From NCBI RefSeq assembly GCF_003324485.1, contig NZ_QODK01000001.1:310001-374000 (forward strand): a stretch of 64,000 bases of DNA, written 5' to 3'. Positions 13,330 to 36,757 of this stretch are shown one piece after another. This stretch comes from Cohaesibacter intestini (GTDB taxonomy: Bacteria; Pseudomonadota; Alphaproteobacteria; Rhizobiales; Cohaesibacteraceae). Both the position numbers and the translations under genes were made by a program. How positions within the stretch are numbered: the first letter of the stretch is position 1; every line of letters begins with the position of its first letter. A model generated the notes under the pieces. That model saw only the letters and a list, made by a program, of their open reading frames with translations, was not told the origin of the DNA and searched no databases.

Positions 13330-16092
13330 TCAGCCGAGGCCATGATCTTTCATGCTGGTGGCTTCCTGCGTTTTGAATTGATGGAAGCGCGGCATGAACT
13401 TGTCCCATTCGACAGTGTGGGCATCAAATTCCGGCCCATCGATGCAGGCATGCAATCTGAGTGGTTTGCCCTCTTCCGTCAGAACAGGCACCATGCAAGC
13501 CCCGCACATGCCGGTGGCATCGACCATGATCGAGTTGAGGCTGACCACGGTTGGCACCCCGTAAGGCTGGGTCAGATCGCTCACCGCACGCATCATCATC
13601 GGCGGGCCGACCGAGATCACTTCGGCAATGGCACGGCCCTTGGACGTCTTGCCATCCTTCAGCATGGCCTCAAGCGGTGTGGTGACAAAGCCTTCGATAC
13701 CGAAGGTGCCGTCGTTGGAGCAATAGATGACATCGAGCTGATCGCCATATTTGGCTTGCAGCAGGCCCATCCGTTCATCTTCGCCAGTCCAGAAGAGATG
13801 GTCGGCAGAGCGGAAACCAATGATCATGGTGACATGATTGCCCTTGGCCAAGTGGGCCTTGGCGATTGGATAGATCGCAGGCAAGCCAACACCGCCAGCA
13901 GTGAAGACCACGGTTTCCTTGTCGGCATCATAGCCATGGACGGCGCTTGGTGCCCCCAATGGTCCGGCAATGCCGGCAAAGGCATCGCCTTCAGCCATCT
14001 TGTTCATCAATTTGGTTGAGGTGCCCATCCCCTGAATGACCAGATCGATGGTGCCCTGCTCAACATCCCAATCCGCCAAGGTCAGCGGGATCAGCTCGCC
14101 ATCCTCGGTTGCCAGAATGCGGACAAATTGTCCGGCGCGGGCCGATTGGGCCACGACAGGCGCTTGCACCGTCATCTCTACAATGCCATTGGCAAGGTCG
14201 ATATGCTTGGTGACGGTATGCTCTGCCTGTCCCAGGCCGGTGAAGTGATCGGCTGTCTTGACGCGGGTGCGAATGTCGGCGGCATCAAGATCGATTGAGC
14301 CGACAATTTCGCGGGCCGCAGCCTGACCGTCGCCTGCGGCGAGAATGGCGGTTGAGCCACCACGGGCAGCATCGCCCCCGGTATAAACATCCTTGATCGA
14401 GGTTTCCTGACTGTTCTCCTCAACCTCGATGGTGCCCCATTTGCTGAGCTTCATATTCGGCTCGGAGGCCGGAATGATCGGGTTGGACTTGTTGCCGAGC
14501 GCCATGATGACCAGATCGGCGGGCATGTTGATCTGCTCGCCGGTTGGCTGTGGCCGTCTGCGACCAGAGGCATCTGGCTCTCCCAACTCATTGACGTCCA
14601 CCACCGCATGGGTGACAAAATGGGTGTGGTGATCGCCGACAAATTCCGTCGGGCCGCGCAATTCGGCCAGCTCGATGCCCTCTTCCAGCGCATGATGCAA
14701 TTCCTCGACGCGGCATGGCATCTCGGATTGGGTGCGGCGATAGACGATGGTCACCTTGCCGCCCAGACGCTTGGCGGTGCGGGCCGCATCCATCGCGGTG
14801 TTGCCGCCACCGATGACGAGGATATTCTTGTCCTTGACCTCTGGCAGCGGGGTTTCATAGCTGGGATCACGACCGCGCATCAGATTGACGCGGGTGAGGA
14901 ATTCGTTGGCCGACATGATGCCAAGCAAATGCTCGCCGGGCACATTCATGAAGGTTGGCAGGCCTGCGCCGGAGCCAACGAAGATTTTCCAGAAGCCTGC
15001 CGCTTTGAGATCTTCGAGGGTGGCGGTTTTGCCAACAACGAAGTTTTTGACGAAGCGTCCGCCCAAGGCATCAATCTTGGCGACCACATCGTCGATCAGG
15101 CTGTTGGGCAAACGGAATTCCGGAATGCCATAGCGCAACACACCGCCCAGTTCATGGAAGGCTTCAAATACCGTTACGGGGAAACCTTCGACCGCCAGCA
15201 GATAGGCATTGATCAGGCCGGATGGACCTGAACCAACCACGGCGATGGGGGGCTTTTCGGCCTTTTCCCATGGGCTGACAATGCCAGCAAAGCGGGCCAT
15301 GCGGTCCGGCTCGGCCAATTTTTCATGTTCAGGCAAATACCATTCCAGCTGGCCGATTTCGATGGGCCGTTTGGTATGTTTGCAGACGCCCTGACATTGA
15401 TGCTCTTGCGGGCAGACGCGGCCTGTGACGTTGGGCAGCGGGTTGCACCCCTCGATCAATTCCAGAGCCTGACGGATCTTGCCCTTGCCGAGCAGATCAA
15501 TCATTTCGGGAATATGGATCTTGACCGGGCAACCGCCAATTTTCTCGCTCTTTTTGTGGCGCTCCATGATGACGCCAAGCTCGCAAGGGCGATCCTCGCA
15601 TTGCTTGTCGCGCAGCACTTCGAGCCAGACAAACAGATCGACTTCCCGCAGGCTATAGCCGAGCGCCTGATAGCCCAGATAGCCTTGGTTGACGAGTTCG
15701 AAGTCACGGCTTCTGTCTTCAGGCGGGCGGACATAGGGTGGGATGAAATTCTCTGCCGGCCAGCCTTCCGACAGGCCCTTGAACATCGGGTAGCGGTCGG
15801 ACAGATGGGCATCGAGCGCCCGGATGAAGGTGCGCTTGAATTTGAGCGGCAGGCCCCAGAGAAATCTCTGGAGCACTGTGCTCATGTCATCATCGCGCAG
15901 CAACAAGGCCCAGAGGGTTTTGGTGAAACCCTCTGCCAGCTCGCCTTGCTGGAACTCCCATGCCACGGCCTTCATGCCGTCATTGACGAACAGGGAGCGC
16001 AGGGACCTTGGATCCGCTGCGAGATGCTTTTTCAGAACGTCGAGTTGCTGGGCAAACAGCGCGTCCTGATTGATGGCTGTATCGACACTCAT
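13330..16092 (-). CDS. single-chain NfnB-NfnA fusion, ferredoxin:NAD(P) transhydrogenase-like
   Basis: A 920-residue flavoprotein joining two proteins that are normally separate. Residues about 130-600 are NfnB/GltD-like: cluster cysteines C188 (GGCPV), C227, C233 and C237, a dinucleotide fold with GSGPSG at 287-292, and a second with GGGNTAMD at 428-435. Residues about 622-920 are NfnA-like (dihydroorotate dehydrogenase electron-transfer type), with [2Fe-2S] ligands C863, C866 and C883 and the usual Asp before them (D858). The N-terminal 120 residues are not recognised. The usual first cluster pattern C-x2-C-x4-C-x3-CP is altered: only C165 and C170 precede C188, with an insertion between. 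The start codon overlaps the nifJ stop (ATGA), implying translational coupling, so it probably links NifJ-reduced ferredoxin to NAD(P)H. Confidence 0.85.
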   Translation of the reverse strand: MSVDTAINQDALFAQQLDVLKKHLAADPRSLRSLFVNDGMKAVAWEFQQGELAEGFTKTLWALLLRDDDMSTVLQRFLWGLPLKFKRTFIRALDAHLSDRYPMFKGLSEGWPAENFIPPYVRPPEDRSRDFELVNQGYLGYQALGYSLREVDLFVWLEVLRDKQCEDRPCELGVIMERHKKSEKIGGCPVKIHIPEMIDLLGKGKIRQALELIEGCNPLPNVTGRVCPQEHQCQGVCKHTKRPIEIGQLEWYLPEHEKLAEPDRMARFAGIVSPWEKAEKPPIAVVGSGPSGLINAYLLAVEGFPVTVFEAFHELGGVLRYGIPEFRLPNSLIDDVVAKIDALGGRFVKNFVVGKTATLEDLKAAGFWKIFVGSGAGLPTFMNVPGEHLLGIMSANEFLTRVNLMRGRDPSYETPLPEVKDKNILVIGGGNTAMDAARTAKRLGGKVTIVYRRTQSEMPCRVEELHHALEEGIELAELRGPTEFVGDHHTHFVTHAVVDVNELGEPDASGRRRPQPTGEQINMPADLVIMALGNKSNPIIPASEPNMKLSKWGTIEVEENSQETSIKDVYTGGDAARGGSTAILAAGDGQAAAREIVGSIDLDAADIRTRVKTADHFTGLGQAEHTVTKHIDLANGIVEMTVQAPVVAQSARAGQFVRILATEDGELIPLTLADWDVEQGTIDLVIQGMGTSTKLMNKMAEGDAFAGIAGPLGAPSAVHGYDADKETVVFTAGGVGLPAIYPIAKAHLAKGNHVTMIIGFRSADHLFWTGEDERMGLLQAKYGDQLDVIYCSNDGTFGIEGFVTTPLEAMLKDGKTSKGRAIAEVISVGPPMMMRAVSDLTQPYGVPTVVSLNSIMVDATGMCGACMVPVLTEEGKPLRLHACIDGPEFDAHTVEWDKFMPRFHQFKTQEATSMKDHGLG

Positions 16093-19000
16093 TTGACGAT
16101 CTCCGCATCACAGGTGGCTGACACCCGATCAAGCCGGGCGCGCAATTGAGGGGTCATCTCGACCGCTTCCAACGCGCCGGGGATGGTGTGGGCCACCGAT
16201 TTGGCCTGACCATCGACGATGATCTTGGTCAGTTCGAACAGCTCAGGCACTTCCTCGTAACAGGTCTTGCAGTCGGTGCACAGGCTCATATCCTCATCGT
16301 GGATATGCGGCACGCTAGACCCATTGGCTGCCGGGGCTGCCCCAGAGGCCGCTCCATTGGCAGCTGGTGCCGCAGCGCTTGGCGCCAGAGCATCGCCCAA
16401 GCCGAAGGCGGCGGCCGGAGCACCAGACGATGCCGCCAGCTCACTCATGCCGGTGGCGATGCTGTCCATGCTGGTCTCACGGGCATCCAAGGCGTCCTTA
16501 TATTTGGCTTCCAAGGCTGCCAGTTCTGCCTTGTGGGCCTTGTCGAGGGCAACCACATGGAGACCGGCCAGATGTTTGAGGGTGCGCCAATAGCGGCGGC
16601 GTTCCTCAACCAGATGGACGATGGTGGCACCAACCTCCATTTTGACCAGATTGCGGTTCTTGTCGGTGGTCAGCACATAGGCAACCATCCGCCCCCGCTC
16701 AGCTATTGGCAGGTCGATATAGTCATGGACCGGCGCTGCCTCGACGCCGTCTTTCAATGGGCGGAACTGCTTTTTGAAGCGGGTTTCATCCAAAGCGAAG
16801 TCGGCGGGCGTGACTGGCACATCCATCAGTTTCAATGCACCGTCCTCGAGATATTCGAGGCTGCGGGTGGCCCAGTCTTGATCCAGAGCCGGGTTGCCGT
16901 CGAGCGAAAAGCGCTCGGCCAGCGTGTCACCCGCCCGTGGGTCATGGACAAAGAGCGGGCTGACGCGGGATTCGACCGCCAGCTTGGTGCGGCGATAGGC
17001 AGCGTCATCGGCGATGCCATGTTCCCCCTGACAAGGGGTATAGACATCGAGCAGGGCTGGCGAGGTGGTTTCTTCCAGATAGGCCCGCAAGCTTTTCAGG
17101 AAATGCCCCTGCATCGCTGTGGCGCTTTGCACCACAAAGACCTGCGGATGGAAGGCGGCGATCAGACCAAGTTCCTTGCGGTCTTCCTGCTTGCCTGCCA
17201 CGGCCGGACCAAAGCGGGCCAAGTCACTATCCTGCCCGGAGAGCGACGCGGTGGAGGCCTGACCACCGGTGTTCGAATAAACCCCCGAGTTCAGCACCAT
17301 CACCTTAACCGGCGTGTTGCTGGACAAGAGCCGAGACAGGGCACCGAAGCCAATGTCATAGGCTGCGCCATCGCCGGAAATATTCATCACGGTTGGCATC
17401 AGGGCACGTTCGGCCTTGGTGAATTGCTGCCACTCGAAATTGCGCAAAGCCATATCATCCGTTGCCGGATCATAGGCATCAGCCAATTCGAGCTTGGCAA
17501 TGCGGATGGCCTTGAAGTCGACCGCGGCACTTGCCGACAGCCCCTCAAAAATCCCCTTGGACAAGGCCGGGCTGTCCTGAAACAGGCTGTTCACCCATGG
17601 GTCATTATAGGGGTTGAACGGGAAGGTCGAGGCATAGACCGAGCTACAGCCGGTGGCGTTGGCCACCACCATCGGGGCCGGACCATTACCGGTTGGACCA
17701 CCTTCGAGCAAGAAGAGGCGTTTTTCCAACACGTCAAGAGCCCCGTCAATGCGGGCCAGACGAACAGCATCATCGCTCACGCTCTGGCGTTTGGCCTGAA
17801 GTTTATTGAGCAGGCCTTCCAACTCGCGGATATGGGTGCGCTGGCGGCGTTCATTCAGTGCATGGGTGGCGGAGACCACCTGCCGGATCGCGGTCACCTC
17901 ACCACAACCACGGCAAGCCCCATGACCGCCGGTGGTGGCATAATAGGTGTCGCGGTCAAGCATCATCCGCTTGAGATCGCCTTCCGGTTCAAAGGCAGGC
18001 TCAATGAAACGTTGCGGGGTGCTTGGGGTCTTGCTGTAGAAGGCGAATTCGGCTTGCAGTTTTTCGAGCAAGGCCGCGTCCTGATCTTCGACAGACAGGG
18101 CACCGGGGCCGCAAATGTCGATACATTCCAGACAGCCAGAGCATTTCCACGGGTCAACGGCCAAGGCATAGAGGCCACCCGAGCCGGTATGGTCTTTTTC
18201 CGGTGTGTCAAAGAAAGGCCTTGTCTTGGCAACCGGCAGGATGGCAACGGCGTCAGCAATGCGAGCAAGATTGCTCTTGACCACGGCGCTTTCGACATAG
18301 AGCTCTTCCACCGCATCGGCGACAAGTTGCGCAAAGGGCTTGCCATCCGTCGAAGCTTGCAGACGGCCTCGGACAGCCGCCCCAATGGTGCGGATATATT
18401 CGCGGACCACTTCGCGCTGAGCGGCTGGCATGTCGAGGTCTTTGGCGGCAGTCATCAACAGATCGTCAATGTCGAGCACGCTGGCTGGCAGGGCGGCATC
18501 GGGACAAACCATCGTACAGTCGATACAGCCGGTGCAGAGATCAGGATCAAAGACTGGAACCGAGCGGCGGAACAGGCCCTTGTCCTTGGCCGCTGCCGTG
18601 CCCGATGGCATGAACATGCCCGCCCCCGGCAGAACCGGCGCTTCTCCGATGGTCCCGTCCCGGAATGGTGAGGCCATGGTTTCTTCATAATAGTCGTGAT
18701 CGAACATGCCGACCGGTGAGGCATCATTGGCGATGCGGCAGGCCGAGGCGGAAATACTCGCAGCAAAGGCTGGCGCCTGATCGGGCAGCTTGGCGATTTC
18801 GGCCAGATCATCTGATTGGTAGTCCATCTGGCGGGTGGCTTCGAGGCCATCGCGGATCACCGCCATGTTGCCCTCGACCACGGCCTGACCCTTGGAGCCG
18901 AATTTCTTGGCGATTTGGTTGCGCACCATATCGAGCACGGCTGCTTCATCCGCCCCTTGGGTGACGCGCTCCACATGGCCACAGACCGCGCCAATGAAGG

Positions 19001-21095
19001 CAATGCCCATCATGCGGGTTTCCAGCTCTGGCGATGGGGCATGTTTCTTGGCGATGGCGAAACCATCGAGCACAAAGAAATTGATCTTGCGCTTGATGAT
19101 GGTGTCGCGGAAGGCCTTTGGCAGATCACGCCAGACTTCAGCACGGCTGAGGCTTGACTGAAGGATGAAGGTACCGCCCTCAACCAGCCCGCGCAACGGG
19201 TTGGAATGGGAGAAGACCTTGTGGTCCGGCGAAATCACCACTTCGACATCTTCAAGATCGGCGTTGGTGATCTTCACGGGTTCCGGGCTCAATGTGATGT
19301 AATAGTTGGTTGGTGCCCCGCTTTTCTCCGAGCCATATTTCGGCGCGGATTTGGAATAGAGCCCCAAGGCATTGGCCAGAATGTCGGTCAACAATTTGCC
19401 CGTGGCGATGGTGCCGTAGCCACCGACCGAGTGGAAGCGGATGCGCAAGGCGCCGTCTGGCAATAGGTTCGGGTTGGGCTTGGTGTCGATCGCCATCATT
19501 TCCGTTTCCGGATAGGCTTCTTTCAATTTGGCCTGCAACTCGCCAATGGCCGGGCTTGGATTGGCGACAAAGAATTGGCTACCGAGATAGACAAAGGGCT
19601 TCTGGCCCGTTTCCATATTCTCATAAGCCGCGATCAGATGGCGTGGCTGAAGATCATGGGCCCCAAGGCCGAAAATGGCAGTGGTGACTTTGGGCATATG
19701 CTCAAGTGCCGGAATGCCGACATAGCGTTCGCCGTCGCGGTTTTCGACCGCCTTCATCAAAGCTTCCTTGACGAAGGTGGTCAGTGCGGTGACATCCGAG
19801 CGCTCCAGGATCGTGACCGCCTTCTTGCCCTGCAAGGCCTCGACCAGATCAGCTTCCGGGAACGGCTGAAGCAGTTTGACGGAAATGACGCCGACCTTCT
19901 TGCCCTGCCGCCGCAGATAGGCTGCGACCGCTTCGGCGTCGTCGGTGACCGAACCAAGGCCGATCAGTACCATCTCGGCATCATCGCATTCAAAGGTCTT
20001 GAGCGGCGCATAATCGCGCCCGGTCAGAGCGGAATATTCAGCCATCGCATCGCGGACAAAGCCCGGCACGTCGCGGACAAAGTGGGTGCGGTGATCGACG
20101 GCACCGGCCTGATAGTCGGGCTGGTTCTGCACACCACCGGTCAGGCCCGGATTGTGAATATCGACCTGTGCTGGAACCCGCTGGCGGGTGCCTTTTTCAA
20201 AAGCATTGAGCCATTGACGACGCCATTGGTCATGGAGCTCGGATGGCACCAGAGCGAGGGTCTCGTCGATCAGTTTGGCTTCGCTGTCTTTCTCGATGGC
20301 GTCCGCATGGGCATCGAGGAAAGCGATCAACTTGGTGTAGATGTCGGTTTCCATGTCGGCGCTGTGGCGGCCCAGATAGCGCTTCAATTGGAAGACACGG
20401 CCCTTGGCACCGAACAGCATCTCTTGGGCCACCGTTGGGCAAGGGATGCGATCATTGGGATCACCGATGAAGGCGCGGAGCAACGCATCCTCCGGCATCA
20501 TCACTTCGCTCATCATGTGCGATGTGACAAAGCCATCCATGGCATTGGTCACCGGCACCATCGACATGGCGCTGACCTTGTAGGAAATGGCGGCCAGATC
20601 GGCGGCTTCCTGCGGGTTGGAGCCAAACAGAATGGTATAGCCCGATGGCAGCAAGGCATAGACGTCATCATGACCGGCCATCACATTGAGCGAATGGCGG
20701 GAGACGGAGCGGGCTGCCACCTGCATGACAAAACCGCCGACTTTCTTGCCGACGGTTACATAATGGGATTCGAGTCCATAAAGCACACCCTGTGAGGAGG
20801 AGGCGTTGGAAATATACTGCCCCCCGGTGAGGGCTGCACCCAGCGCGCCCGATTGGGCGGAATGCTCGCCTTCAGGCTCGAAGAAGAAGGGGTGTCTACC
20901 CCAAATATTGACCCCACCGCCTGCGCGGAAGGCTTCGTATAATTCAGCAATTTCGGTTGATGGCGTGATCGGATAGCCAATCACCCCGCCGCATACCTGG
21001 CCCATCACCTGCGCGATGGCACCATTGCCGTGAATCACTGTCGAAATGCCCGGGAATACCGGTTTTTTGGAAACTTTCTGGTCCATTTGCTCCAC
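16089..21095 (-). CDS. nifJ: long pyruvate:ferredoxin (flavodoxin) oxidoreductase, NifJ type
   Basis: A 1668-residue homodimer-type 2-oxoacid oxidoreductase, about 470 residues longer than typical NifJ (about 1175-1200). Order: alpha domain with YPITPSTE at 41-48; gamma domain from about 548; two ferredoxin clusters (C854/857/860/864 and C985/988/991/995); TPP domain with proximal-cluster cysteines C1061, C1064, C1150 and C1355, GDG at 1241-1243 and N1269. An extra C-terminal region (about 1360-1668) adds a helical part, an Ala/Pro-rich linker (1553-1595) and a four-cysteine ferredoxin-like tail (C1606, C1609, C1612, C1662). It converts pyruvate and CoA to acetyl-CoA, CO2 and reduced ferredoxin. 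All catalytic motifs are intact. It is cotranscribed with the downstream Nfn fusion. Confidence 0.9.
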   Translation of the reverse strand: MEQMDQKVSKKPVFPGISTVIHGNGAIAQVMGQVCGGVIGYPITPSTEIAELYEAFRAGGGVNIWGRHPFFFEPEGEHSAQSGALGAALTGGQYISNASSSQGVLYGLESHYVTVGKKVGGFVMQVAARSVSRHSLNVMAGHDDVYALLPSGYTILFGSNPQEAADLAAISYKVSAMSMVPVTNAMDGFVTSHMMSEVMMPEDALLRAFIGDPNDRIPCPTVAQEMLFGAKGRVFQLKRYLGRHSADMETDIYTKLIAFLDAHADAIEKDSEAKLIDETLALVPSELHDQWRRQWLNAFEKGTRQRVPAQVDIHNPGLTGGVQNQPDYQAGAVDHRTHFVRDVPGFVRDAMAEYSALTGRDYAPLKTFECDDAEMVLIGLGSVTDDAEAVAAYLRRQGKKVGVISVKLLQPFPEADLVEALQGKKAVTILERSDVTALTTFVKEALMKAVENRDGERYVGIPALEHMPKVTTAIFGLGAHDLQPRHLIAAYENMETGQKPFVYLGSQFFVANPSPAIGELQAKLKEAYPETEMMAIDTKPNPNLLPDGALRIRFHSVGGYGTIATGKLLTDILANALGLYSKSAPKYGSEKSGAPTNYYITLSPEPVKITNADLEDVEVVISPDHKVFSHSNPLRGLVEGGTFILQSSLSRAEVWRDLPKAFRDTIIKRKINFFVLDGFAIAKKHAPSPELETRMMGIAFIGAVCGHVERVTQGADEAAVLDMVRNQIAKKFGSKGQAVVEGNMAVIRDGLEATRQMDYQSDDLAEIAKLPDQAPAFAASISASACRIANDASPVGMFDHDYYEETMASPFRDGTIGEAPVLPGAGMFMPSGTAAAKDKGLFRRSVPVFDPDLCTGCIDCTMVCPDAALPASVLDIDDLLMTAAKDLDMPAAQREVVREYIRTIGAAVRGRLQASTDGKPFAQLVADAVEELYVESAVVKSNLARIADAVAILPVAKTRPFFDTPEKDHTGSGGLYALAVDPWKCSGCLECIDICGPGALSVEDQDAALLEKLQAEFAFYSKTPSTPQRFIEPAFEPEGDLKRMMLDRDTYYATTGGHGACRGCGEVTAIRQVVSATHALNERRQRTHIRELEGLLNKLQAKRQSVSDDAVRLARIDGALDVLEKRLFLLEGGPTGNGPAPMVVANATGCSSVYASTFPFNPYNDPWVNSLFQDSPALSKGIFEGLSASAAVDFKAIRIAKLELADAYDPATDDMALRNFEWQQFTKAERALMPTVMNISGDGAAYDIGFGALSRLLSSNTPVKVMVLNSGVYSNTGGQASTASLSGQDSDLARFGPAVAGKQEDRKELGLIAAFHPQVFVVQSATAMQGHFLKSLRAYLEETTSPALLDVYTPCQGEHGIADDAAYRRTKLAVESRVSPLFVHDPRAGDTLAERFSLDGNPALDQDWATRSLEYLEDGALKLMDVPVTPADFALDETRFKKQFRPLKDGVEAAPVHDYIDLPIAERGRMVAYVLTTDKNRNLVKMEVGATIVHLVEERRRYWRTLKHLAGLHVVALDKAHKAELAALEAKYKDALDARETSMDSIATGMSELAASSGAPAAAFGLGDALAPSAAAPAANGAASGAAPAANGSSVPHIHDEDMSLCTDCKTCYEEVPELFELTKIIVDGQAKSVAHTIPGALEAVEMTPQLRARLDRVSATCDAEIVK

Positions 21096-25062: not shown

Positions 25063-25086
25063 GCCTCACGAAAAAGGAGATAGACT

Positions 25087-25206: not shown

Positions 25207-25279
25207 TCTTCCCCCGAAACTGGCCGGTGGACACCTCTTGCCCACTGGCCGTACTCTTTGAGAATGAGAGCCGCCCTTG

Positions 25280-28715: not shown

Positions 28716-29063
28716 GGCACCCGGCTACAGCGCTCTAATACTATCGTCTTACAAAACAAAACTATCCACAAGCGCTAACTGCTGATTTCTGGCAATGGCC
28801 ACGACAAGCTGTCGTCAGCCTGTCACCTCACTGGCATTTCCCGCCAAAAGCTTCCCAAATTTCGCGACATCCCGTCGCATATTGTATCGATTTAAATTCT
28901 CGGTGATCTGAGGCCCCAAGTTGGCGATTTCATTGACACGGGTCAATGCATCAAGACCTGTCAGGCGTAGCGTCAGATCAGTTGTTGCTGTGCCCACAGA
29001 TGATTTGCCGGAGGCGATTTGCTGGAGGACCGGGCGCAGGGGTGCAACAGTGGGAGTGAAATA
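28716..29063. promoter_or_regulatory. 348-base control region before the nfnA operon
   Basis: No convincing gene is seen here. The region holds an FNR/FixK-like site at 28933-28946 and should carry the promoter of the nfnA-nfnB-korA-korB operon. A 60-codon minus-strand reading has no family-like features. Confidence 0.55.
28933..28946. promoter_or_regulatory. FNR/FixK-like binding site
   Basis: TTGACACGGGTCAA matches TTGA-N6-TCAA, and the symmetry extends to TTGAC/GTCAA. It lies 117 bases before the nfnA start, in a position suited to activation or repression under low oxygen. Function is inferred. Confidence 0.6.
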
Positions 29064-30017
29064 ATGTCCGATCGCGAACAGGAGGGCGGTCTGACGGCCG
29101 CCAACCAGTCGCAGGGCGTGGCCAGCATGGTCACGTCCCGCTTTCCGATTGTCTCGCGGACCGATTTTTCCGAGACAACCTTTCTTCTAGACATTCTGCA
29201 TCCGACCATGGCCCGGGCCGCAAAGCCCGGCCAGTTTGTCATTGTGATGCTGGATGAGCATGGCGAGCGCATTCCGCTGACCATCGCCGATTTTGACCGT
29301 GACAAGGGCACGATCACATTGGTCGTGCAGGCAGTGGGAAAATCAAGCCGTCAGATGCAGGCCGATTGTCAGGCAGGTGGCTCGATTTATGCCATCGTTG
29401 GCCCAATGGGCATCCCCAGCGAAATTTCGAACGCCAAAACAGTCATTTGCGTTGGTGGGGGGTTGGGCGTTGCGCCGATCTATCCGCAAGCCCGGGCCTT
29501 CAAGGAAGCCGGAGCCTATGTGATTGGCGTTGTAGGGTTTCGCTCTGCCAATCTGATGTTCTGGGAAGAGAAATTCAAGGCGGTCTGCGACGAGTTCATC
29601 GTCTGCACCGATGATGGCTCGGCGGGTCTGCATGGGCTGGTGACCGAAGGCATCGAACAGGCAATTGCCAAGCATGGCACCATCGATGAGGTGGTGGCGA
29701 TCGGCCCACCGATCATGATGCGGGCCTGCGCGGAAACCACCCGTCCCCACAAGATCAAAACCATGGTCAGCCTCAATCCCATCATGGTGGATGGCACGGG
29801 CATGTGCGGCGGTTGCCGGGTGCGGGTCAATGCGCAAATCAAGTTTGCCTGCGTTGACGGGCCGGATTTTGACGGCCATCAGGTCGATTTTGACGATCTC
29901 TTCTCGCGGCTCAATCGCTACCGGGCCGAAGAGAAGCAAGCCATGGAACGCTATTCGGACAGTTGCCGTCGCCTGATCGCGGCTGACGCAGCCGCAGCCC
30001 AAGAGGGGGGCAAGTGA
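29064..30017 (+). CDS. nfnA: NfnA-like ferredoxin:NAD+ oxidoreductase subunit
   Basis: A 317-residue FAD/NAD-binding protein of the dihydroorotate-dehydrogenase electron-transfer (PyrK) type, the small subunit of Nfn. The [2Fe-2S] site has DGTGMCGGCR followed by FACVDGP, giving Asp plus three Cys as in known NfnA. The NAD-binding motif is VGGGLGVAPIYPQA. The ATG at 29064 is chosen because GGGAG lies eight bases upstream; MVTSRFPI 21 codons later is an alternative start that would remove a low-complexity leader. It is the first gene of a five-gene operon, one base before nfnB. It is clearly related to the C-terminal third of the Nfn fusion at 13.3-16.1 kb. Confidence 0.85.
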   Translation: MSDREQEGGLTAANQSQGVASMVTSRFPIVSRTDFSETTFLLDILHPTMARAAKPGQFVIVMLDEHGERIPLTIADFDRDKGTITLVVQAVGKSSRQMQADCQAGGSIYAIVGPMGIPSEISNAKTVICVGGGLGVAPIYPQARAFKEAGAYVIGVVGFRSANLMFWEEKFKAVCDEFIVCTDDGSAGLHGLVTEGIEQAIAKHGTIDEVVAIGPPIMMRACAETTRPHKIKTMVSLNPIMVDGTGMCGGCRVRVNAQIKFACVDGPDFDGHQVDFDDLFSRLNRYRAEEKQAMERYSDSCRRLIAADAAAAQEGGK

Positions 30018-30018
30018 T

Positions 30019-31527
30019 ATGGTCCGCAAGACAATCAGAACCATCCCGCAAGAGCGGGCTCCCATGCCGGTGCAGGACCCGGACATTCGTGCCACCAATT
30101 TTGACGAAGTGGCGCTGGGCTTTGACATTGAAGCAGCCAAACTGGAAAGCGAGCGCTGTTTGATGTGCCCGGAACCGGCCTGTGTGGAAGGTTGCCCGGT
30201 CAAGATCGACATTCCCGGCTTCATCGAAAAGATCCTTACCAAGGATTATCGCGGCGCCTATGATCACATGACCAACGCCACCATGTTGCCAGCGGTCTGC
30301 GGTCGGGTCTGCCCGCAGGAAGATCAATGCGAGGGCGTGTGCGCGGTTGGTGCTGGCACCGGGCTGGAACCGGTCGCCATTGGCCGTCTGGAACGCTTCC
30401 TTGGCGATATGGCCATCAAGGAAGGCTGGAAAAAGTCGACCCATATCGAGCCCGCTCCCTTCAAGGTGGCAATTGTCGGCTCAGGTCCGGCAGGTATGGC
30501 CTGCGCGGCTGATCTGGCCAAGGCGGGCTGCAAGGTGACCATCTACGAGGCCCTGCACAAGCCGGGCGGCGTGTTGCGCTATGGCATCCCTGAATTTCGA
30601 CTGCCCAATGATGTGGTGGATGCGGAAATCGCCAATCTCGATGCCCTTGGTGTCGAAATTATCTGCAACACATTGGTCGGACGGCTGTTCGCCATCGAGG
30701 ACATGCTCGGTGACATGGCCTATGACGCGGTCTTTATCGGCGTTGGAGCCGGGACACCTTATTTCATGGACATTCCGGGAGAAAATCTCAACGGTGTCCT
30801 GTCGGCCAACGAATTGCTGACCCGCTGCAATTTGATGCATGCGGGCGAGTTCCCGGCCTTTGATACCCCGCTCGGCCTGGGCCGCAAGGTGGCGGTGATC
30901 GGCTCTGGCAACACTGCGATGGACGCAATGCGGGTCTCCAAACGCCTCGGCGCGGAAGAGGTTCACTGCATCTATCGCCGCTCCGAGGTGGAATGCCCGG
31001 CACGGGCCGAAGAGCTGCATCATGCGCAGGAAGAAGGCATTGATTTTCACTGGCTGACCAACCCGGTCGAAATTCTTGGCGATGCCAACAACAATGTGCG
31101 CGGCATCCGCTGCATTCGCATGGAGTTGGGCGAGCCGGACAAATCCGGTCGACGCCGTCCGGTGGCGGTGGAAGGCAGCGCGTTCGACTTTGAAGCAGAC
31201 ACGGTGGTCTATGCCATCGGCACCTCGCCAAACCCGATCCTTGGTCAAACCTCGACAATCGGCCTCAACAAATGGGGCTATATCGACACCGACGAGAGCC
31301 TCGCCACCTCACTGGCCGGGGTTTATGCGGGCGGCGACATTGTTACCGGTGCTGCCACCGTCATTCAGGCGATGGGTGCAGGCCGCAAGGCTGCCAGCAG
31401 CATCAAGCACTATTTGCGTATCCGTGACAGCGACGTGGTCTACATGCCCGAAGAACACGGATTTGCCCATAGCCTGTTTGGCATTGATACGGACGAGCAG
31501 AATTTCGTCCGAATTCGTCAGATCTGA
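30019..31527 (+). CDS. nfnB: NfnB-like NADP-dependent oxidoreductase subunit (GltD family)
   Basis: A 502-residue GltD-family flavoprotein, the large subunit of Nfn, which carries the bifurcating FAD and binds NADPH in studied cases. The N-terminal clusters are canonical: RCLMCPEPACVEGCPV, then GRVCPQEDQCEGVC. FAD binding is at GSGPAGMACA and NADP binding at GSGNTAMDAM. Both cluster patterns are complete, unlike those of the fused copy. It follows nfnA by one base and precedes korA by 17. It probably equilibrates ferredoxin reduced by KorAB with NADH and NADPH. Confidence 0.87.
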   Translation: MVRKTIRTIPQERAPMPVQDPDIRATNFDEVALGFDIEAAKLESERCLMCPEPACVEGCPVKIDIPGFIEKILTKDYRGAYDHMTNATMLPAVCGRVCPQEDQCEGVCAVGAGTGLEPVAIGRLERFLGDMAIKEGWKKSTHIEPAPFKVAIVGSGPAGMACAADLAKAGCKVTIYEALHKPGGVLRYGIPEFRLPNDVVDAEIANLDALGVEIICNTLVGRLFAIEDMLGDMAYDAVFIGVGAGTPYFMDIPGENLNGVLSANELLTRCNLMHAGEFPAFDTPLGLGRKVAVIGSGNTAMDAMRVSKRLGAEEVHCIYRRSEVECPARAEELHHAQEEGIDFHWLTNPVEILGDANNNVRGIRCIRMELGEPDKSGRRRPVAVEGSAFDFEADTVVYAIGTSPNPILGQTSTIGLNKWGYIDTDESLATSLAGVYAGGDIVTGAATVIQAMGAGRKAASSIKHYLRIRDSDVVYMPEEHGFAHSLFGIDTDEQNFVRIRQI

Positions 31528-31544: not shown

Positions 31545-33473
31545 ATGACATCTGATAGCTCTCAGCCTATCGCACAAGACACCCCACTTCCCGCCGCCGG
31601 GTCTGCCACTGGTGCCAAGACCGCCATGCGACCCGCCGAAGTGATCCATGAACATATCATCGAAATTGTCAGTGATTCTGGTGAAGGCGCGCAGAGATGC
31701 GGCCAATCACTCGCATCCATCGCGGCCCGTTCGGGTATGGGCATCTGGACGGTGGAAATCATCCCTGCCGAAATCCAGCCACCGCCCCGCTCTGTCGCCG
31801 GCGCCAGTGGCAACCGGGTGCGAATGGCCGCCCACAAGGTGACCAATGTTGGCGATCAGGCCGATCTGGTCATCGCCTTCAATGAACAGGTTTTGCTCAG
31901 CCGCCTTCGGGCCGGAGAGATCAAGCAGGGTGCGACCATTCTGCTTGAGGACATGTGGAAGCGGGATGCCCATCAGCCGATTGCTGATGCCTATGCGGAC
32001 GTGTGCGCTGAAATCCGCGCCGGTGGTTATCGCTTGATCGAAGTACCGATGGAAGCGGAATGCCAGAAATATGTGCCGGACCCGCGCAAGGGCAAGAATA
32101 TGTTCGTGCTGGGCATGCTCTGCTCGATCTATTCCCTTGATGAAGAGCTGGCAGCGTCACAGGTGAAGCTGACCTTCATCAAAAAGGATCGCAAGATCAT
32201 CGACGCCAACCTTGAACTCATGGCAGCGGGTCGAGTATGGGCCAACGACAATCTTGACATGCACTACCGCATCCCTGCCCCGCCGGTTGAAAAGCCGCAG
32301 GTGGTAACCAACGGCAATGCGGCCTTGGCTTTGGGGGTTGTGGCCTCGGGCATGGAAGTCTGTGCCATGTATCCCATCACGCCAGCCACCTCGGCCTCGC
32401 ATTATCTCTCGAGCATTTTCGAAAAAGTGGGTTGCGTGGTGCATCAGGCCGAGGATGAAATCTCGGCGGCAACCTTTGCCATTGGCGCTTCTTATGCGGG
32501 CAAATGTGCGGTGACCATCACCTCCGGTCCCGGCCTGTCACTAAAACAGGAAGCCATTGGCCTTGCGGTGATGGCGGAAATCCCGCTGGTGCTGATCGAT
32601 GTGCAGCGTGGTGGCCCCAGCACCGGTTTGCCGACCAAGGTCGAACAAAGCGATTTGATGGCCGCCATTTTCGGTAGCCATGGGGATGCGCCCAAGGTGG
32701 TGATGGCGGTCGATAGCATTGAGGATTGCTTCTATTCGGTGATCACCGCGCGCAAGATTGCCGAGACCTTCAATATGGTGGTGATGATCCTGTCTGATGC
32801 CGCCCTGTCGACGGCGCAACAGCCTTTTGACCGCCCGGTCTTCAGCGCCGATTGGCTGGCCCCGCCGGTCAACCAAAGCGCGGTGCCGCCGGATGCCAAG
32901 CCCTATGACTGGGACGAGCGAACGGGCATTGCCACCCGCTTCATTCCCGGCCAGCCAAACGGCATGCACTGCCTGACAGGCTTGGCCCATGATCGCAACA
33001 GCCGGGTGGCCTATGACCCGAAAACCAACGAGGAAGGGCTGATCAACCGGACCCGCAAACTCGCCGCCCTGCAAAAGACCCTGCGTCTGGCACCGGTCTT
33101 TGGCGACGAGGAAGGGGATTTGTTGCTGATCGGCTGGGGCAGCACCCGCGGCGCCATCGAAGAAGCGGTGACCGCCCTCAGGCAAGAGGGCCACAAGGTT
33201 TCCTCCCTGCATCTGAAGTATCTCCAGCCGATGGCGTCAGGCATTGACGAGGTGATGGGTCGCTTCAAAAAGGTGATGACGATCGAGAATAACTGGAATG
33301 ATCCGCTCTCTGATCCGCTGATCAATTCGGACAATCGCCGCTATTCGCAACTGGCGCTGCTGCTGCGGTCGCGCTGGCTGGTGGATGTCGATTGCTGGGG
33401 CAAGTCCCATGGCCAACCGCTCAAACCTGCCCAGATCAAGGCCGCAGCCTTGGCCAAACTCGAACAGGCATGA
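31545..33473 (+). CDS. korA: 2-oxoacid:ferredoxin oxidoreductase alpha subunit (gamma-alpha fusion, KorA-like)
   Basis: A 642-residue protein with an N-terminal gamma domain (about 30-220) and a C-terminal alpha domain. The alpha part holds YPITPATSAS and RGGPSTGLPTKVEQSDL, typical of the two-subunit KorAB type that acts on 2-oxoglutarate or a related 2-oxoacid. With KorB it would make acyl-CoA, CO2 and reduced ferredoxin. It contains no ferredoxin cluster motif. The nine-base gap to korB supports co-expression. The exact substrate cannot be set from sequence alone. Confidence 0.88.
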   Translation: MTSDSSQPIAQDTPLPAAGSATGAKTAMRPAEVIHEHIIEIVSDSGEGAQRCGQSLASIAARSGMGIWTVEIIPAEIQPPPRSVAGASGNRVRMAAHKVTNVGDQADLVIAFNEQVLLSRLRAGEIKQGATILLEDMWKRDAHQPIADAYADVCAEIRAGGYRLIEVPMEAECQKYVPDPRKGKNMFVLGMLCSIYSLDEELAASQVKLTFIKKDRKIIDANLELMAAGRVWANDNLDMHYRIPAPPVEKPQVVTNGNAALALGVVASGMEVCAMYPITPATSASHYLSSIFEKVGCVVHQAEDEISAATFAIGASYAGKCAVTITSGPGLSLKQEAIGLAVMAEIPLVLIDVQRGGPSTGLPTKVEQSDLMAAIFGSHGDAPKVVMAVDSIEDCFYSVITARKIAETFNMVVMILSDAALSTAQQPFDRPVFSADWLAPPVNQSAVPPDAKPYDWDERTGIATRFIPGQPNGMHCLTGLAHDRNSRVAYDPKTNEEGLINRTRKLAALQKTLRLAPVFGDEEGDLLLIGWGSTRGAIEEAVTALRQEGHKVSSLHLKYLQPMASGIDEVMGRFKKVMTIENNWNDPLSDPLINSDNRRYSQLALLLRSRWLVDVDCWGKSHGQPLKPAQIKAAALAKLEQA

Positions 33474-33482
33474 GGTGAGATT

Positions 33483-34475
33483 ATGACTGCTACAATGAGC
33501 CAATGCCTGATGAATATGGTCCAGACGGACTATGGGATCGGCGACTATCAAAGTGCCATCGCGCCGCGTTGGTGCTCGGGCTGTGGGGACACGGCCATTC
33601 TGACCGCGATGCAGAAACTCTGCCGGGACGAACAACTGGCTCCGGAAAAGACCGTCTGTGTTTCCGGGATCGGCTGCGCCTCGCGCTTGCCGCACTATAT
33701 GAATGCCTATGGCTTTCATGGCATTCATGGGCGGGCCCTGCCGATTGCCGAGGGGATCAAGATCCGCCGACCTGACCTCAATGTGTTTGTGACGACCGGG
33801 GATGGCGACTGCTGCTCCATCGGGGCGGCCCACTGGCTGCATGCAATCCGATACAATATGAACATGACGGTGCTGCTGCATGACAACAATGTCTATGGCC
33901 TGACCAAGAAGCAGGCGTCTCCCACCTCGCCCAAAGGACTGAAGAGCAACACGACCCCTTATGGCGCGGCGCTTAATCCGCTCAATCCGCTGACGGTGAC
34001 GTTGGGGGTGGCCAACGTGTCCTTTGTGGCGCAGGCGGTCGACTGGATCCCGGATCTGCTTTATGACATCCTGCAAAAAGCCTATCATCACAAGGGCTTT
34101 TCCTTCATCCGCATCCTGCAACGCTGCCCGAACTTCATGGATCATCATTTTGATGAGGCGGTGCGGGATCCGCTCAAGACCCGCATCCTGACCCATGCAG
34201 ACGGGTTGCGGCTGAAACCGGAAATTTCCCGGATCTACAAGAATCAGGAAACCCACGACCCAATCAACATGGAGCGGGCCTTGGCTCTGGCCGCGATGCA
34301 GGAGGAGCTGCCGGTCGGCATCCTCTATAACAACCCGTCGGTGCCTTGCTATGACGAATTGCGGGCAGGCGAGCGGCCCAGCACGCCGGGGCTGGTGGAA
34401 ACCGTCCTCAATGAGGAATTCGACAAGGTGGGCATCTGGCCGCAAAGCCAGCCAACGCCACAAGCCGGGGAGTAG
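33483..34475 (+). CDS. korB: 2-oxoacid:ferredoxin oxidoreductase beta subunit (KorB-like)
   Basis: A 330-residue TPP-binding subunit. The proximal [4Fe-4S] cysteines are in PRWCSGCGDTA, GIGCAS and LQRCPNF; the TPP/Mg motif is TTGDGDCCSIG followed by DNNVYGLTKKQASPT. All expected catalytic features are intact. The length is normal for KorB/PorB. It pairs with korA directly upstream, and the 736-residue gene starts five bases after it. Confidence 0.9.
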   Translation: MTATMSQCLMNMVQTDYGIGDYQSAIAPRWCSGCGDTAILTAMQKLCRDEQLAPEKTVCVSGIGCASRLPHYMNAYGFHGIHGRALPIAEGIKIRRPDLNVFVTTGDGDCCSIGAAHWLHAIRYNMNMTVLLHDNNVYGLTKKQASPTSPKGLKSNTTPYGAALNPLNPLTVTLGVANVSFVAQAVDWIPDLLYDILQKAYHHKGFSFIRILQRCPNFMDHHFDEAVRDPLKTRILTHADGLRLKPEISRIYKNQETHDPINMERALALAAMQEELPVGILYNNPSVPCYDELRAGERPSTPGLVETVLNEEFDKVGIWPQSQPTPQAGE

Positions 34476-34480: not shown

Positions 34481-36691
34481 ATGGCACAAGCACAAATCAT
34501 TGCGGCGCCCATGACACCAAAGACGCCAACAGACCCGCACCCTGCCGGGGCGCAATCCCGCCTGTTGCCGGCTTTGTTTGCCCGCTACGGGAATTTGACC
34601 GCCCTGCGGCACGATTATCCGCTGGTGTTGGTGGAAGGGGAAGATGCTCCGCAAATCATCCGGCCCCTCAGCCGGATTGTCGATGATGCCCTGAAAGCCG
34701 CCGCGCCATTGGGACCAGACGGGGAAGCCATGCGGCAGCAGGTCTTGCAGCTGGAACAACGGATCCGCGAGAAGGTCGCAGAAGGCAACGAGGAGCTTCT
34801 CTCCGAGCTGTGGCGCCTTTGCGAGGCGGATCTGGTGCGCGAGAGTGGCGAAGCACCCTTCGGCCCGATGGATCGCAATATGGATCTGGCTCGACAGAAA
34901 GTGTCGGTCGATGGCAAGGTCATCGGCTGTGATGCGGCAACGCCGGACCGCATCCTTGGTCATGCCTGGCAGAAGGTGCATCACAAACGCGCCCGGCAGT
35001 TCCGCAAAAAGGTAGACGGCCTGATCCTCAAGCTGACCGATATCCTGAAGTCGGATCATATGAAATCGGACGAGGCCCACAGTGCCGATGCCCTGTCAAA
35101 GGCGATGGGCATGGACACTGACAACTCGATCGATTTTTCGATGTTGTCGGATATGCTGCATCGGGTGCAACCGGAAGACCGGCTGCCACAAGACCGGGTT
35201 GAGCGGATCAAGCATGCGCTTCATGTGCTTCAGACACAGGCCTTCTTCGGCCCGGGTCGGGCGTCCTACACCGAGCCGGGCAAGGCGATCTGCTACAGCT
35301 ATGTCTTTACCAGCTGTTCGAGCGCGCTTGACGCCTATCGGGAGCGCCTTCCCAGTGTGGTCGAGTTCGTCAAGGCGCTGACCATTGCCGAAATGGAAGT
35401 ACAGAACAAATATGTCTCTGACTTGCATGACGGGATCTTTGCCACCTTTGACGAGCATGATCTGACGGCTGAACAAATGGCATTGCTGCCCTCGGCCATG
35501 ATCTATCTGCGCGACGGGGTGACGGATAGTGCAGAATTGGCCCGGGCCTATGAGGCGCTGGCCTATGGTTTGCCGATCAAGGTGCTCATTCAGGTGGATG
35601 ACGTGTTGGGGCCGACCTCACCGGAACCGCCGCGCAACTCGTTTGGCGCTGGCACACCAAAGCTTGCCGCCATGGCGATGGGCTTGAACAATGCCTTTGT
35701 GATGCAGACCAACAGCGCCCACCTCTACCGAATGCAGGATGCGTTGATGCATGGCATGGCCTATGACGGTCCGGCCATGTTCAGCCTCTATTCGGGAGCC
35801 AGTGAAACCGTTGAGGGGATCGCACCTTACATTCTGGCAGCCGCGGCAGCGGAATCCCGGGCCTTCCCCAACTTCACCTATGACCCGTCCGCCGGGCGGG
35901 ATATTGCCGGGCGGTTCGACCTCTCGGCCAATCCGCAAGTGGAGGCTGACTGGCCGAGCCATGAAATCAGCTTTGAGGACCAGAATGGCAATGCGGTCAC
36001 CGAGTCGGTGCAGTTCACCTATGGGGACTTTGCCCTGTGTGACCGGCGCTATCGCCGCTTCTGTCATCCCGTCAGCAAGAAAGGCTGGAGCGGTGACATG
36101 GTTGCCTTTGCCGAATGGATGAAGGTGCCGCTCAACAGCGACGACATTCGCCGCCCCTTTGTTCTGGGGGTCGACGATGATCTGCAAATGGCTCGCATTG
36201 TGGTGGATGACAAGATCTCCAGCGCTGCACGGCAATGCCTTGACGGCTGGAACCGGCTGCAGGAAATGGCTGGGATCAACAACTCCCACACTCTCGCGGC
36301 ATTGGCAGCCGAACGGGTCAAGCGTGAGGATTTGGCTCGAGAGCAGGCCAATTCGGAACCGACAGCCCCAGTGGCTCCCACATTGTCCAGCGCACCAGTG
36401 GACCCGATCGTTGAAGCTGCCGAGGAAGCAGATGCGCCACCCGAAGGCAGCCCATGGATCGAAACGCCTCGTTGCACAACCTGCAACGAATGCCGCCAGA
36501 TCAATGACCGGCTGTTTGGCTATAACGACAATCTGCAGGCCTATATCGCCGATCCGGATGCGGGCAGCTATCGGCAGTTGGTCGAAGCGGCCGAAAGCTG
36601 TCAGGTCAGCATCATCCATCCCGGTTTGCCACGGGATCCAGATGAGCCCAATCTGGATGAGCTGAAAGAACGCGCCAAGCTGTTCAACTAG
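34481..36691 (+). CDS. NifJ C-terminal-like protein with degenerate TPP domain and four-cysteine tail
   Basis: A 736-residue protein that I do not recognise as a named family. Its central part (about 335-600) lines up by eye with residues 1235-1515 of the NifJ protein at 16.1-21.1 kb: ESRAFPNFTYDPSAG (458-472) matches ESRVSPLFVHDPRAG, and FDLSANPQVEADW matches FSLDGNPALDQDW. At the TPP site GDG is replaced by RDG and the NSGVYSNTGG segment by QVDDVLGPTS, so cofactor binding is probably lost. A Pro/Ala-rich linker (625-660) and C665, C668, C671 and C707 form a ferredoxin-like tail like that of NifJ. Residues 1-330 are helical and unrecognised. It closes the nfn-kor operon and may be an extra electron-transfer or scaffold subunit of KorAB. 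Confidence 0.7.
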   Translation: MAQAQIIAAPMTPKTPTDPHPAGAQSRLLPALFARYGNLTALRHDYPLVLVEGEDAPQIIRPLSRIVDDALKAAAPLGPDGEAMRQQVLQLEQRIREKVAEGNEELLSELWRLCEADLVRESGEAPFGPMDRNMDLARQKVSVDGKVIGCDAATPDRILGHAWQKVHHKRARQFRKKVDGLILKLTDILKSDHMKSDEAHSADALSKAMGMDTDNSIDFSMLSDMLHRVQPEDRLPQDRVERIKHALHVLQTQAFFGPGRASYTEPGKAICYSYVFTSCSSALDAYRERLPSVVEFVKALTIAEMEVQNKYVSDLHDGIFATFDEHDLTAEQMALLPSAMIYLRDGVTDSAELARAYEALAYGLPIKVLIQVDDVLGPTSPEPPRNSFGAGTPKLAAMAMGLNNAFVMQTNSAHLYRMQDALMHGMAYDGPAMFSLYSGASETVEGIAPYILAAAAAESRAFPNFTYDPSAGRDIAGRFDLSANPQVEADWPSHEISFEDQNGNAVTESVQFTYGDFALCDRRYRRFCHPVSKKGWSGDMVAFAEWMKVPLNSDDIRRPFVLGVDDDLQMARIVVDDKISSAARQCLDGWNRLQEMAGINNSHTLAALAAERVKREDLAREQANSEPTAPVAPTLSSAPVDPIVEAAEEADAPPEGSPWIETPRCTTCNECRQINDRLFGYNDNLQAYIADPDAGSYRQLVEAAESCQVSIIHPGLPRDPDEPNLDELKERAKLFN

Positions 36692-36718: not shown

Positions 36719-36757
36719 ACCCCGGACAGGCAACAGCCTTTCCGGGGTTTTTCTTTT
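36719..36757 (+). terminator. rho-independent terminator of the nfn-kor operon
   Basis: ACCCCGGA (36719-36726) pairs with TCCGGGGT (36741-36748) over a 14-base loop, followed by TTTTCTTTT. It lies 28 bases after the last operon gene. Confidence 0.85.

Follow-up and report, generated by a model that had tools for sequence, protein, structure and literature searches.

What is the role of the 736-residue protein encoded immediately downstream of korAB in Cohaesibacter intestini? The first-pass annotation of this stretch of 64,000 nucleotides (the window) took the protein, here called X736, for a detached NifJ C-terminus with a dead TPP site that could act as a third subunit carrying electrons from KorB to NfnAB. 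The features of the operon are as follows.

29019..30017, forward strand: nfnA, Nfn small subunit (308 bits to 5jca_S).
30019..31527, forward strand: nfnB, Nfn large subunit (548 bits to 4ylf_B).
31417..31524, forward strand: C-terminal extension of NfnB (residues 467–502), a candidate docking element of X736 operons.
31545..33473, forward strand: korA, with domains III–I–II (TIGR03710).
33483..34475, forward strand: korB, TPP subunit, apparently active, with GDG and four cluster cysteines.
34362..34442, forward strand: C-terminal tail of KorB (residues 294–320), a candidate docking element.
34481..36691, forward strand: X736, 736 residues, a detached, apparently inactive NifJ domain V–VI half with a ferredoxin tail (open reading frame, hhalign, Foldseek).
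36719..36757, forward strand: intrinsic terminator after X736, predicted from the sequence (fold −23.1 kcal/mol, z −4.5).

The true start of nfnA is probably downstream of the TTG; homology begins at residue 41. The consensus terminator scan did not list 36719..36757. NfnB keeps its eight N-terminal cysteines in 62/62 sequences, and NfnAB, as an NfnI by sequence match, may bifurcate electrons. KorA matches the Pfam families POR, POR_N and PFOR_II, and KorB matches TPP_enzyme_C and PFO_beta_C; neither has a Fer4 domain at E ≤ 1, as expected from the earlier remark that KorAB lacks a ferredoxin domain. The GDG motif of KorB is kept in all 71 sequences with letters at this position, and its four cysteines in 70/70, 70/70, 70/70 and 73/73.

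X736 is homologous to the domain V–VI half of the tailed long NifJ proteins, one of which is encoded in the window.

16089..21095, reverse strand: tailed long NifJ, 1668 residues, apparently active, a relative of X736.
13330..16092, reverse strand: fused Nfn, 920 residues, NfnB part followed by NfnA part, adjoining the long NifJ.

BLASTP aligns X736 with this NifJ at 83 bits (E 5e-20), and hhalign aligns profiles of 63 X736 proteins and nine long NifJ proteins with a probability of 100 and an E-value of 1.8e-39 over columns 28–605 and 837–1527, that is about residues 27–604 of X736 and 827–1517 of NifJ. In the best block (458–503 against 1375–1420), for which about 17 of 45 identities had been estimated by eye, we counted 17 in 46 gap-free positions. 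The local alignment of X736 291–605 with NifJ 1041–1540 scores 209, compared with a mean of 36 (s.d. 5.2, maximum 58) over 200 shuffles; at 33 s.d., and with the hhalign E-value, a chance resemblance was rejected. In Foldseek, 16/16 PDB hits of the whole model at E ≤ 1e-3 are PFORs, and 22/22 hits of residues 281–605 alone are PFORs or oxalate oxidoreductase, which is the thiamine-type fold anticipated by the first-pass annotation, albeit with loose superpositions (TMq about 0.22 for the whole model and about 0.45 for the core).

The NifJ likeness therefore stands, with the qualification that the partner is the tailed long NifJ: among the canonical PFORs compared (12 rows, two of them column by column), no match extends to the tail. 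TIGR02176, the canonical NifJ family, is matched neither by X736 at E ≤ 1 nor by the 63 homologues at E ≤ 0.01. The hits of X736 in NCBIfam are weak and unrelated (E 0.04–0.05), as are those of a few homologues (best 1.9e-4), Pfam recognises only the tail of the family proteins, and a PDB sequence search with X736 gave credible E-values only for ferredoxin I, at the tail. A broken NifJ fragment was also rejected, the matched part being in open frame in 82/82 sequences (X736 itself, 80 loci and L011, an X736-type homologue) and the tail conserved. The domains of X736 are laid out as follows.

34562..34900, forward strand: helical remnant of domain V (X736 28–140), both cluster motifs deleted in the hhalign register.
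34901..35320, forward strand: first half of domain VI (141–280), its CxGC loop down to one cysteine, C150.
35321..36295, forward strand: apparently inactive TPP-fold core (281–605), GDG replaced by RDG (AF2 pLDDT 86.1, pTM 0.81; Foldseek).
36296..36445, forward strand: linker (606–655), variable and partly Pro/Ala-rich, mean pairwise identity 0.33.
36446..36688, forward strand: single-cluster ferredoxin tail (656–736) with C665, C668, C671 and C707 (Fer4_13, Foldseek).

The N-terminal 330 residues, previously described as helical and unexplained, are thus not an unrelated helical domain: by their homology to NifJ, they are a domain V remnant without clusters followed by the first half of domain VI. 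The Pro/Ala linker and the C-x2-C-x2-C...C tail do follow the core in the same order as in the long NifJ; residues 628–650 of the linker are poorly predicted (pLDDT < 50).

The TPP site of X736 is apparently inactive, since the GDG motif is found at the position of residues 344–346 in 0/82 sequences, with RDG, the replacement reported earlier, in 21/82; one homologue (L047) has a GDG a few residues beyond this position. All eight domain V cluster cysteines of NifJ lie opposite gaps in the alignment. At the positions of NifJ C1061, C1064, C1150 and C1355, which we take to be the proximal-cluster ligands (an assumption for all but the CXGC loop), X736 has V147, C150, a gap (or C279) and A440, so that the set of four cysteines is incomplete; C279 is the match according to BLASTP, with which MAFFT and hhalign disagree. 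The CXGC loop is given as a proximal-cluster ligand site in PMC5020499.

The tail is the best-conserved part of X736: its mean pairwise identity is 0.72, comparable with KorA, KorB and NfnB (0.69–0.73), against 0.33–0.51 for the remainder and 0.44–0.51 for the pseudo-enzyme body. Its four cysteines, whose conservation had been proposed as a check, are kept in 82/82 sequences. Fer4_13 matches 63/63 X736 proteins at E ≤ 1 in Pfam, and in X736 itself exceeds the gathering score (26 versus 24.5 bits). The tail superposes on 1fxr (TMt 0.85, r.m.s.d. 0.8, E 0.022; Foldseek) and resembles an electron-carrying ferredoxin, Desulfovibrio africanus Fd I; it would be expected to bind a single [4Fe-4S] cluster. 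The dicluster motif CX2CX2CX3C is present in 0/82 X736-type sequences, and X736 as an OFOR delta subunit was rejected on this ground.

In a tree of 26 of the 81 X736 sequences plus L011, 12 Nfn-type NifJ proteins of those at hand and 12 PFORs (four partial PFOR loci being omitted), the tailed long NifJ proteins are the closest relatives of X736; the branching of X736 relative to the two tailed NifJ kinds is not settled. Tailed NifJ proteins of the Nfn type adjoin a fused Nfn in 16/16 cases examined, and the fused Nfn of the window fits 'pattern C' as outlined in PMC6405883. The sole tail-less long NifJ of the Nfn kind examined (G180) has no Nfn match within 20 kb, which is one case. Other long NifJ genes lie in rnf operons, three of them in the order rnfB–NifJ–rnfC. 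Taken together, these three sets of loci indicate that the tail goes with electron-accepting flavoproteins. Two long-NifJ loci occur, without annotation, in plasmid records.

Relatives of X736 are encoded in 310 stretches of a homologue scan, and linkage was read from the best 80 of these 310. The constant korAB linkage looked for by the first-pass annotation was found: among these 80, korB is immediately upstream of the X736 homologue in 74/74 loci with more than 400 bp of upstream sequence, and the order nfnA–nfnB–korA–korB–X736 is kept in 56/56 loci with enough upstream sequence (55 by script and one by reading), with no sixth gene widely conserved beside the five. More distant homologues located away from korAB are possible beyond these 80. 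Synteny and co-inheritance of the five genes fit co-regulation as well. The protein is uncommon in the class: X736 occurs in 5/385 genomes, the same five that have a KorB at least 59% identical to that of the window. In the order, 13/199 genomes matched, nine with an X736-type protein (one, in G057, split across two contig ends) and four with a long NifJ only. A phylum survey with the L011 protein matched 11/398 genomes, all but its own with a long NifJ. L011 itself has the order korB–X807–rnfB on a single 4.6-kb contig of a genome that is 86% complete with 5% contamination. An artefact of metagenome-assembled genomes (MAGs) was rejected, as genomes named as Cohaesibacter, Aliiruegeria and Tropicimonas strains carry X736. 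In some betaproteobacterial loci, the stretch contains a second cluster, GltD-like–KorA–KorB, and only the one X736; X736 is hence not required for coupling KorAB to a pyridine-nucleotide flavoprotein.

The proposal of a third subunit between KorB and NfnAB gives the best fit to this evidence, and we think it likely that X736 is the fifth subunit of a KorAB–NfnAB enzyme, in which its tethered tail wires KorB to NfnB. The simplest source of X736 is a tailed long NifJ, of which it would be the C-terminal half (domains V and VI and the ferredoxin tail), an order in which the tailed form would have come first. X736 would have lost two domain V clusters, the TPP motif and most proximal ligands, while its tethered tail with a single [4Fe-4S] cluster remained. 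As we infer the physical complex of KorAB, X736 and NfnAB, with its electron route, direction and substrate, KorAB would oxidise a 2-oxoacid (probably 2-oxoglutarate) with CoA at TPP, and electrons would exit via the [4Fe-4S] cluster of KorB itself. The pseudo-V/VI body would occupy, on KorAB, the ferredoxin pocket that stands empty in two-subunit OFORs; structures of the latter lack domain V and have a large pocket seemingly able to bind ferredoxin, according to PMC5020499. On its flexible linker, the tail cluster would shuttle single electrons from KorB to the Fe–S clusters of NfnB, and from there onward to the flavins that serve NADP(H)/NAD(H), with no need for soluble ferredoxin.

The high conservation of the tail and its resemblance to an electron carrier speak against a role of X736 in the assembly or structure of KorAB (such as stabilising an (αβ)2 core or shielding it from oxygen), with a tail cluster that is structural or a redox sensor instead of a relay. 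The large, less conserved pseudo-enzyme body speaks for such a role, and the genome also encodes an OGDH E1, so that KorAB need not be a main catabolic flux and could serve special conditions. Yet in the relatives the tail goes with Nfn (16/16 tailed against 0/1 tail-less), and we regard such a role as unlikely. It is quite unlikely that X736 passes the electrons of KorB to soluble ferredoxin or another acceptor, nfnAB being merely co-transcribed and using free ferredoxin, although co-transcription by itself accounts for the linkage and reduced ferredoxin is the described substrate of Nfn (PMC6405883). Against it, the NfnB extension is almost without gaps in 62 sequences (the window and 61 loci, a fragment at a contig end in L216 being uninformative) and is unmatched in 11 other NfnB-like proteins, including the fused Nfn of the window. 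Moreover, the KorB C-tail is found in five X736-linked KorB proteins and in 0/25 unlinked ones among the 30 best matches read, out of matches in 125 genomes, and the single gene order spans loci labelled Alpha-, Beta-, Gamma- and Deltaproteobacteria and Acidobacteria, labels that are not counted as reliable for MAGs.

A second, altered cluster is conceivable because C150 (81/82), C279 (79/82) and C586 (74/82) are near-invariant without explanation. With C150 at a proximal-cluster ligand position, the three cysteines, alone or together with a partner subunit, might coordinate a second cluster (e.g. [2Fe-2S]) or a metal and make X736 a two-cluster relay; we consider this very unlikely, and positions 150 and 586 are Ile and Arg in the divergent L011 protein. 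Returning to the wiring of KorB to NfnB by the tethered tail, it is plausible, if somewhat short of an even chance, that the V–VI–tail module is a plug-in adaptor moved between NifJ or KorAB and Nfn or Rnf, with X736 as its stand-alone form. The dead half-enzyme would then have become a wiring subunit of a five-subunit machine, in which a bifurcating flavoprotein is fed straight from 2-oxoacid oxidation without free ferredoxin. All four combinations are seen, that of KorAB with Rnf coming from a single short contig.

Low-potential electrons from 2-oxoacids normally go via diffusible ferredoxin, which is open to many enzymes. If our proposal is true, a dedicated carrier, tethered to an inactive enzyme body, would shield this flow and couple it to the balance of NADPH and NADH, or to an ion pump in the Rnf relatives. 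In a family spread across Proteobacteria (310 stretches in one scan, the best 80 examined), the conversion of half an enzyme into a part for electron wiring could thereby be tested, and the unassigned protein adjoining korAB gains a candidate function. We found no description of an X736-type subunit in the open-access literature, in line with the first-pass annotation.

X736 shares with PFOR/NifJ (1b0p, 6cin) the homologous fold and order of domains V and VI, but lacks domains I–IV, the TPP motif, the domain V clusters and most proximal ligands, and has a C-terminal ferredoxin tail that the canonical PFORs compared lack. The linker and C-x2-C-x2-C...C tail are shared with the tailed long NifJ proteins (1.65–1.7 kaa; beside a fused Nfn or within rnf operons), which span the full length and seem active, the rows checked having both the TPP motif and the cluster cysteines, whereas X736 is the apparently inactive half only. 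KorA and KorB are of the same type as the two-subunit enzymes Sulfolobus tokodaii OFOR and Magnetococcus OGOR (6n2n); the former has two subunits, neither with a ferredoxin domain, and works with a separate ferredoxin (PMC5020499). Helicobacter pylori OorDABC (8ys5), a four-subunit OGOR (korABCD in PMC6315080), carries extra subunits on an OFOR, as the proposed X736 enzyme would. Unlike the delta subunit of OGOR, X736 has no dicluster motif and has a 600-residue pseudo-enzyme body. That delta subunit is a small dicluster ferredoxin. In the Azoarcus evansii 2-oxoglutarate:NADP+ oxidoreductase KorABC, KorAB is coupled to a GltD/NfnB-like NADP flavoprotein, to our knowledge with no X736-like subunit. 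In some X736 loci, a KorABC-like GltD-like–KorA–KorB cluster is present as a separate neighbour.

The gene for the 736-residue protein, hereafter X736, closes a tightly packed run of five, its start lying 5 bases past the end of korB:

29019-30017, + strand: nfnA, 308 bits to the solved NfnI subunit 5jca_S
30019-31527, + strand: nfnB, 548 bits to the solved NfnI subunit 4ylf_B
31545-33473, + strand: korA, exceeding the TIGR03710 cut-off
33483-34475, + strand: korB, PorB/KorB-like, slightly below the cut-off of the PorB/KorB model
34481-36691, + strand: X736, an open reading frame of 736 residues
36719-36757: strong intrinsic terminator 3′ of X736 (absent from the consensus-scan list)

The top PDB match of KorB is the Magnetococcus 2-oxoglutarate:ferredoxin oxidoreductase. 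Neither KorA nor KorB matches a ferredoxin domain at E ≤ 1, in agreement with the first-pass annotation. Genes for cytochrome bd oxidase subunits I and II and for CydD/CydC transporter proteins lie upstream of the operon (22294-28715, + strand), and these cydAB-/cydDC-type genes hint at low-oxygen use. Elsewhere in the window, a TPP riboswitch exceeds its gathering score (58120-58213, − strand).

The sole Pfam match of X736 is a Fer4_13 ferredoxin domain (residues 664-713), in its C-terminal tail. The likeness to NifJ that had been noticed by eye was borne out: the long NifJ of the window is matched by BLASTP at E = 5e-20, 17 of the 46 positions in the best block proposed earlier are identical, and the alignment scores 33 standard deviations above 200 shuffles. 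A profile–profile comparison of 63 X736 proteins with nine long NifJ proteins gives E = 1.8e-39 (X736 residues ~27-604 with NifJ 827-1517), and residues 141-735, tail included, match the tailed NifJ of another genome, G014 (194 bits, E = 4e-56). AlphaFold2 models were obtained for the whole protein (pLDDT 84.1, pTM 0.73) and for residues 281-605 alone (pLDDT 86.1, pTM 0.81). Foldseek against the PDB gave, at E ≤ 1e-3, 16 matches to the whole model, every one a PFOR, and 22 to the core, each a PFOR or an oxalate oxidoreductase, so that the thiamine fold predicted for the core was recovered; the models superpose loosely on PFOR (TMq about 0.22 for the whole and about 0.45 for the core). The tail aligns with Desulfovibrio africanus ferredoxin I (TMt 0.85, r.m.s.d. 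0.8 Å, E = 0.022).

Residues that hold cofactors in NifJ are largely missing from X736. In a 54-row alignment, all eight cluster cysteines of NifJ domain V (854, 857, 860, 864, 985, 988, 991 and 995) stand opposite gaps, from which we read residues 28-140 as the helical portion of a domain V that has lost its clusters; the N-terminus, previously left unexplained, is accounted for by homology. At the four proximal-cluster positions C150 alone is clearly retained, and C279 may stand for a second (it does so in BLASTP, but not in MAFFT or hhalign). Counted over 82 sequences (X736, the best 80 of 310 loci and a divergent member, L011), GDG occurs at the TPP-motif position in none and the four tail cysteines in all, as the first-pass annotation had anticipated from one protein; one locus, L047, has a GDG a few residues beyond that position. 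A dicluster motif was sought in the same 82 and found in none. Outside the tail, three further cysteines are conserved almost throughout (C150 in 81/82, C279 in 79/82 and C586 in 74/82):

34928, + strand: first base of X736 codon 150
35315, + strand: first base of codon 279
36236, + strand: first base of codon 586

KorB of X736 operons has GDG in 71/71 sequences with letters at the site and its cluster cysteines in 70/70, 70/70, 70/70 and 73/73; the eight N-terminal cysteines of NfnB are present in 62/62.

Scanning genome_contigs (84,980 species) yielded 310 stretches with X736 relatives, of which the best 80 were analysed. The proposed linkage to korAB held throughout: korB lies directly upstream in 74/74 of these loci with more than 400 bp of upstream sequence, the remaining six having at most 323 bp. 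Upstream sequence of at least 5.7 kb is available in 56, and nfnA-nfnB-korA-korB-X736 was found on one strand by script in 55; in the last, L091, the same order is seen by reading, with korA within an over-long stop-to-stop frame. A survey of 385 genomes from the class found X736 in five and KorB (E ≤ 1e-30) in 125. These five, our own included, are exactly those in which KorB shares 59% identity or more with that of the window (next best 51%), and korB and X736 are adjacent on the same contig and strand in 5/5. Outside this set of five, a second korAB cluster is the most frequent neighbour (10 of the best 80 loci). A second, diverged GltD-like–KorA–KorB cluster, which resembles Azoarcus KorABC, lies beside the X736 operon in several Betaproteobacteria-labelled loci (L055, 13160-17849; also L059, L072, L090, L091 and L096). 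The MAG labels of L024, L096 and L098 (Anaerolineae, Bordetella and Chitinophaga) look unlikely because the sequences group with Alpha- or Betaproteobacteria-labelled rows.

NfnB of X736 operons carries a C-terminal extension of 35 residues, nearly gap-free in 62 sequences, whereas in 11 other NfnB-like proteins of the class the match ends at 466-473. A KorB C-tail pattern like TPxLVxxVLNxEFDKFxIWP, loose in some, is found in the five X736-linked proteins of 30 examined and, by eye, in 0/25 unlinked ones. Judged from sequence, both features may be signs of a complex. Over 58 operons, mean pairwise identity is 0.72 for the X736 tail, close to NfnB (0.73), KorA (0.70) and KorB (0.69), and 0.33-0.51 for X736 outside the tail. 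X736 identities track those of its operon partners (r = 0.95 for KorA, 0.93 for NfnB, 0.93 for KorB and 0.76 for NfnA); these correlations show co-inheritance, not contact.

A maximum-likelihood tree was built from 54 rows of the domain VI region, with 12 canonical PFORs chosen as outgroup; in it, the 26 X736 rows group with L011 as a single clade (100/98). It adjoins two kinds of tailed long NifJ, and all are separated from the canonical PFORs (100/100). The simplest inference is that X736 derived from a full-length tailed NifJ, a step beyond the tree itself, which does not fix how X736 and the two NifJ kinds branch. The first kind has a fused Nfn alongside in 16/16 loci with the tail (the window, G137, G165, G592 and 12 more). 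In the window (13330-21095, − strand) the tailed 1668-residue NifJ is followed by the 920-residue fused Nfn, a pair seen in 15 further loci examined, and it is likely a pyruvate–NAD(P) system parallel to the Kor operon. 'Pattern C' of PMC6405883, an uncharacterized one, fits the fused Nfn. The long NifJ of genome G180 (L119, 7988-12664) lacks the tail, its frame ending at 1559 residues with a plain stop, and no Nfn or Rnf match occurs in the surrounding 20 kb; this single case is a small natural control for the idea that the tail is what links to Nfn. The second kind lies in rnf operons (rnfB-NifJ-rnfC in G014, G803 and G886), with rnfB and rnfC queries exceeding the TIGR01944 and TIGR01945 cut-offs:

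L116, 4406-11678: tailed NifJ inside or beside rnf genes, order rnfB-NifJ-rnfC
L178, 5312-12534: likewise, same order
L179, 4549-11946: likewise, same order
L217, 6022-18060: tailed NifJ inside or beside rnf genes

A Persicobacter plasmid has NifJ-rnfC, followed some 5 kb later by rnfB. Placement of tailed NifJ inside or beside rnf genes suggests direct NifJ–Rnf coupling. On a Gemmatirosa plasmid (L218, 1185-12461), korA-korB-rnfB-NifJ-rnfC form a single run, and KorAB next to a complete tailed NifJ plausibly shows what the arrangement looked like before X736 became separate. Contig G113 carries korB-X807-rnfB (the L011 case). All four combinations of NifJ or KorAB with Nfn or Rnf are thus found, KorAB–Rnf on a single short contig, and the V–VI–tail module is the constant part.

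According to PMC5020499, domain V is absent from two-subunit OFOR structures, and between domains III and VI they have a large pocket in which ferredoxin could apparently bind. In the mechanism we propose, the pseudo-V/VI body of X736 would bind KorAB, and its tethered tail cluster would accept electrons from the KorB cluster and pass them on to NfnB. The genome also encodes an OGDH E1 (1122.6 bits, cut-off 770), so KorAB is not needed for closing the oxidative TCA cycle and may serve in low-oxygen or reductive metabolism.

No description of an X736-like subunit was found in the open-access literature searched. To our knowledge, the extra OFOR subunits described are small gamma and dicluster delta proteins. 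The 2-oxoglutarate:NADP+ oxidoreductase of Azoarcus evansii, in which KorAB is coupled to a GltD-like flavoprotein, contains nothing like X736 that we know of. An OFOR with extra subunits is represented by the solved structure of Helicobacter pylori OorDABC (PDB entry 8ys5).
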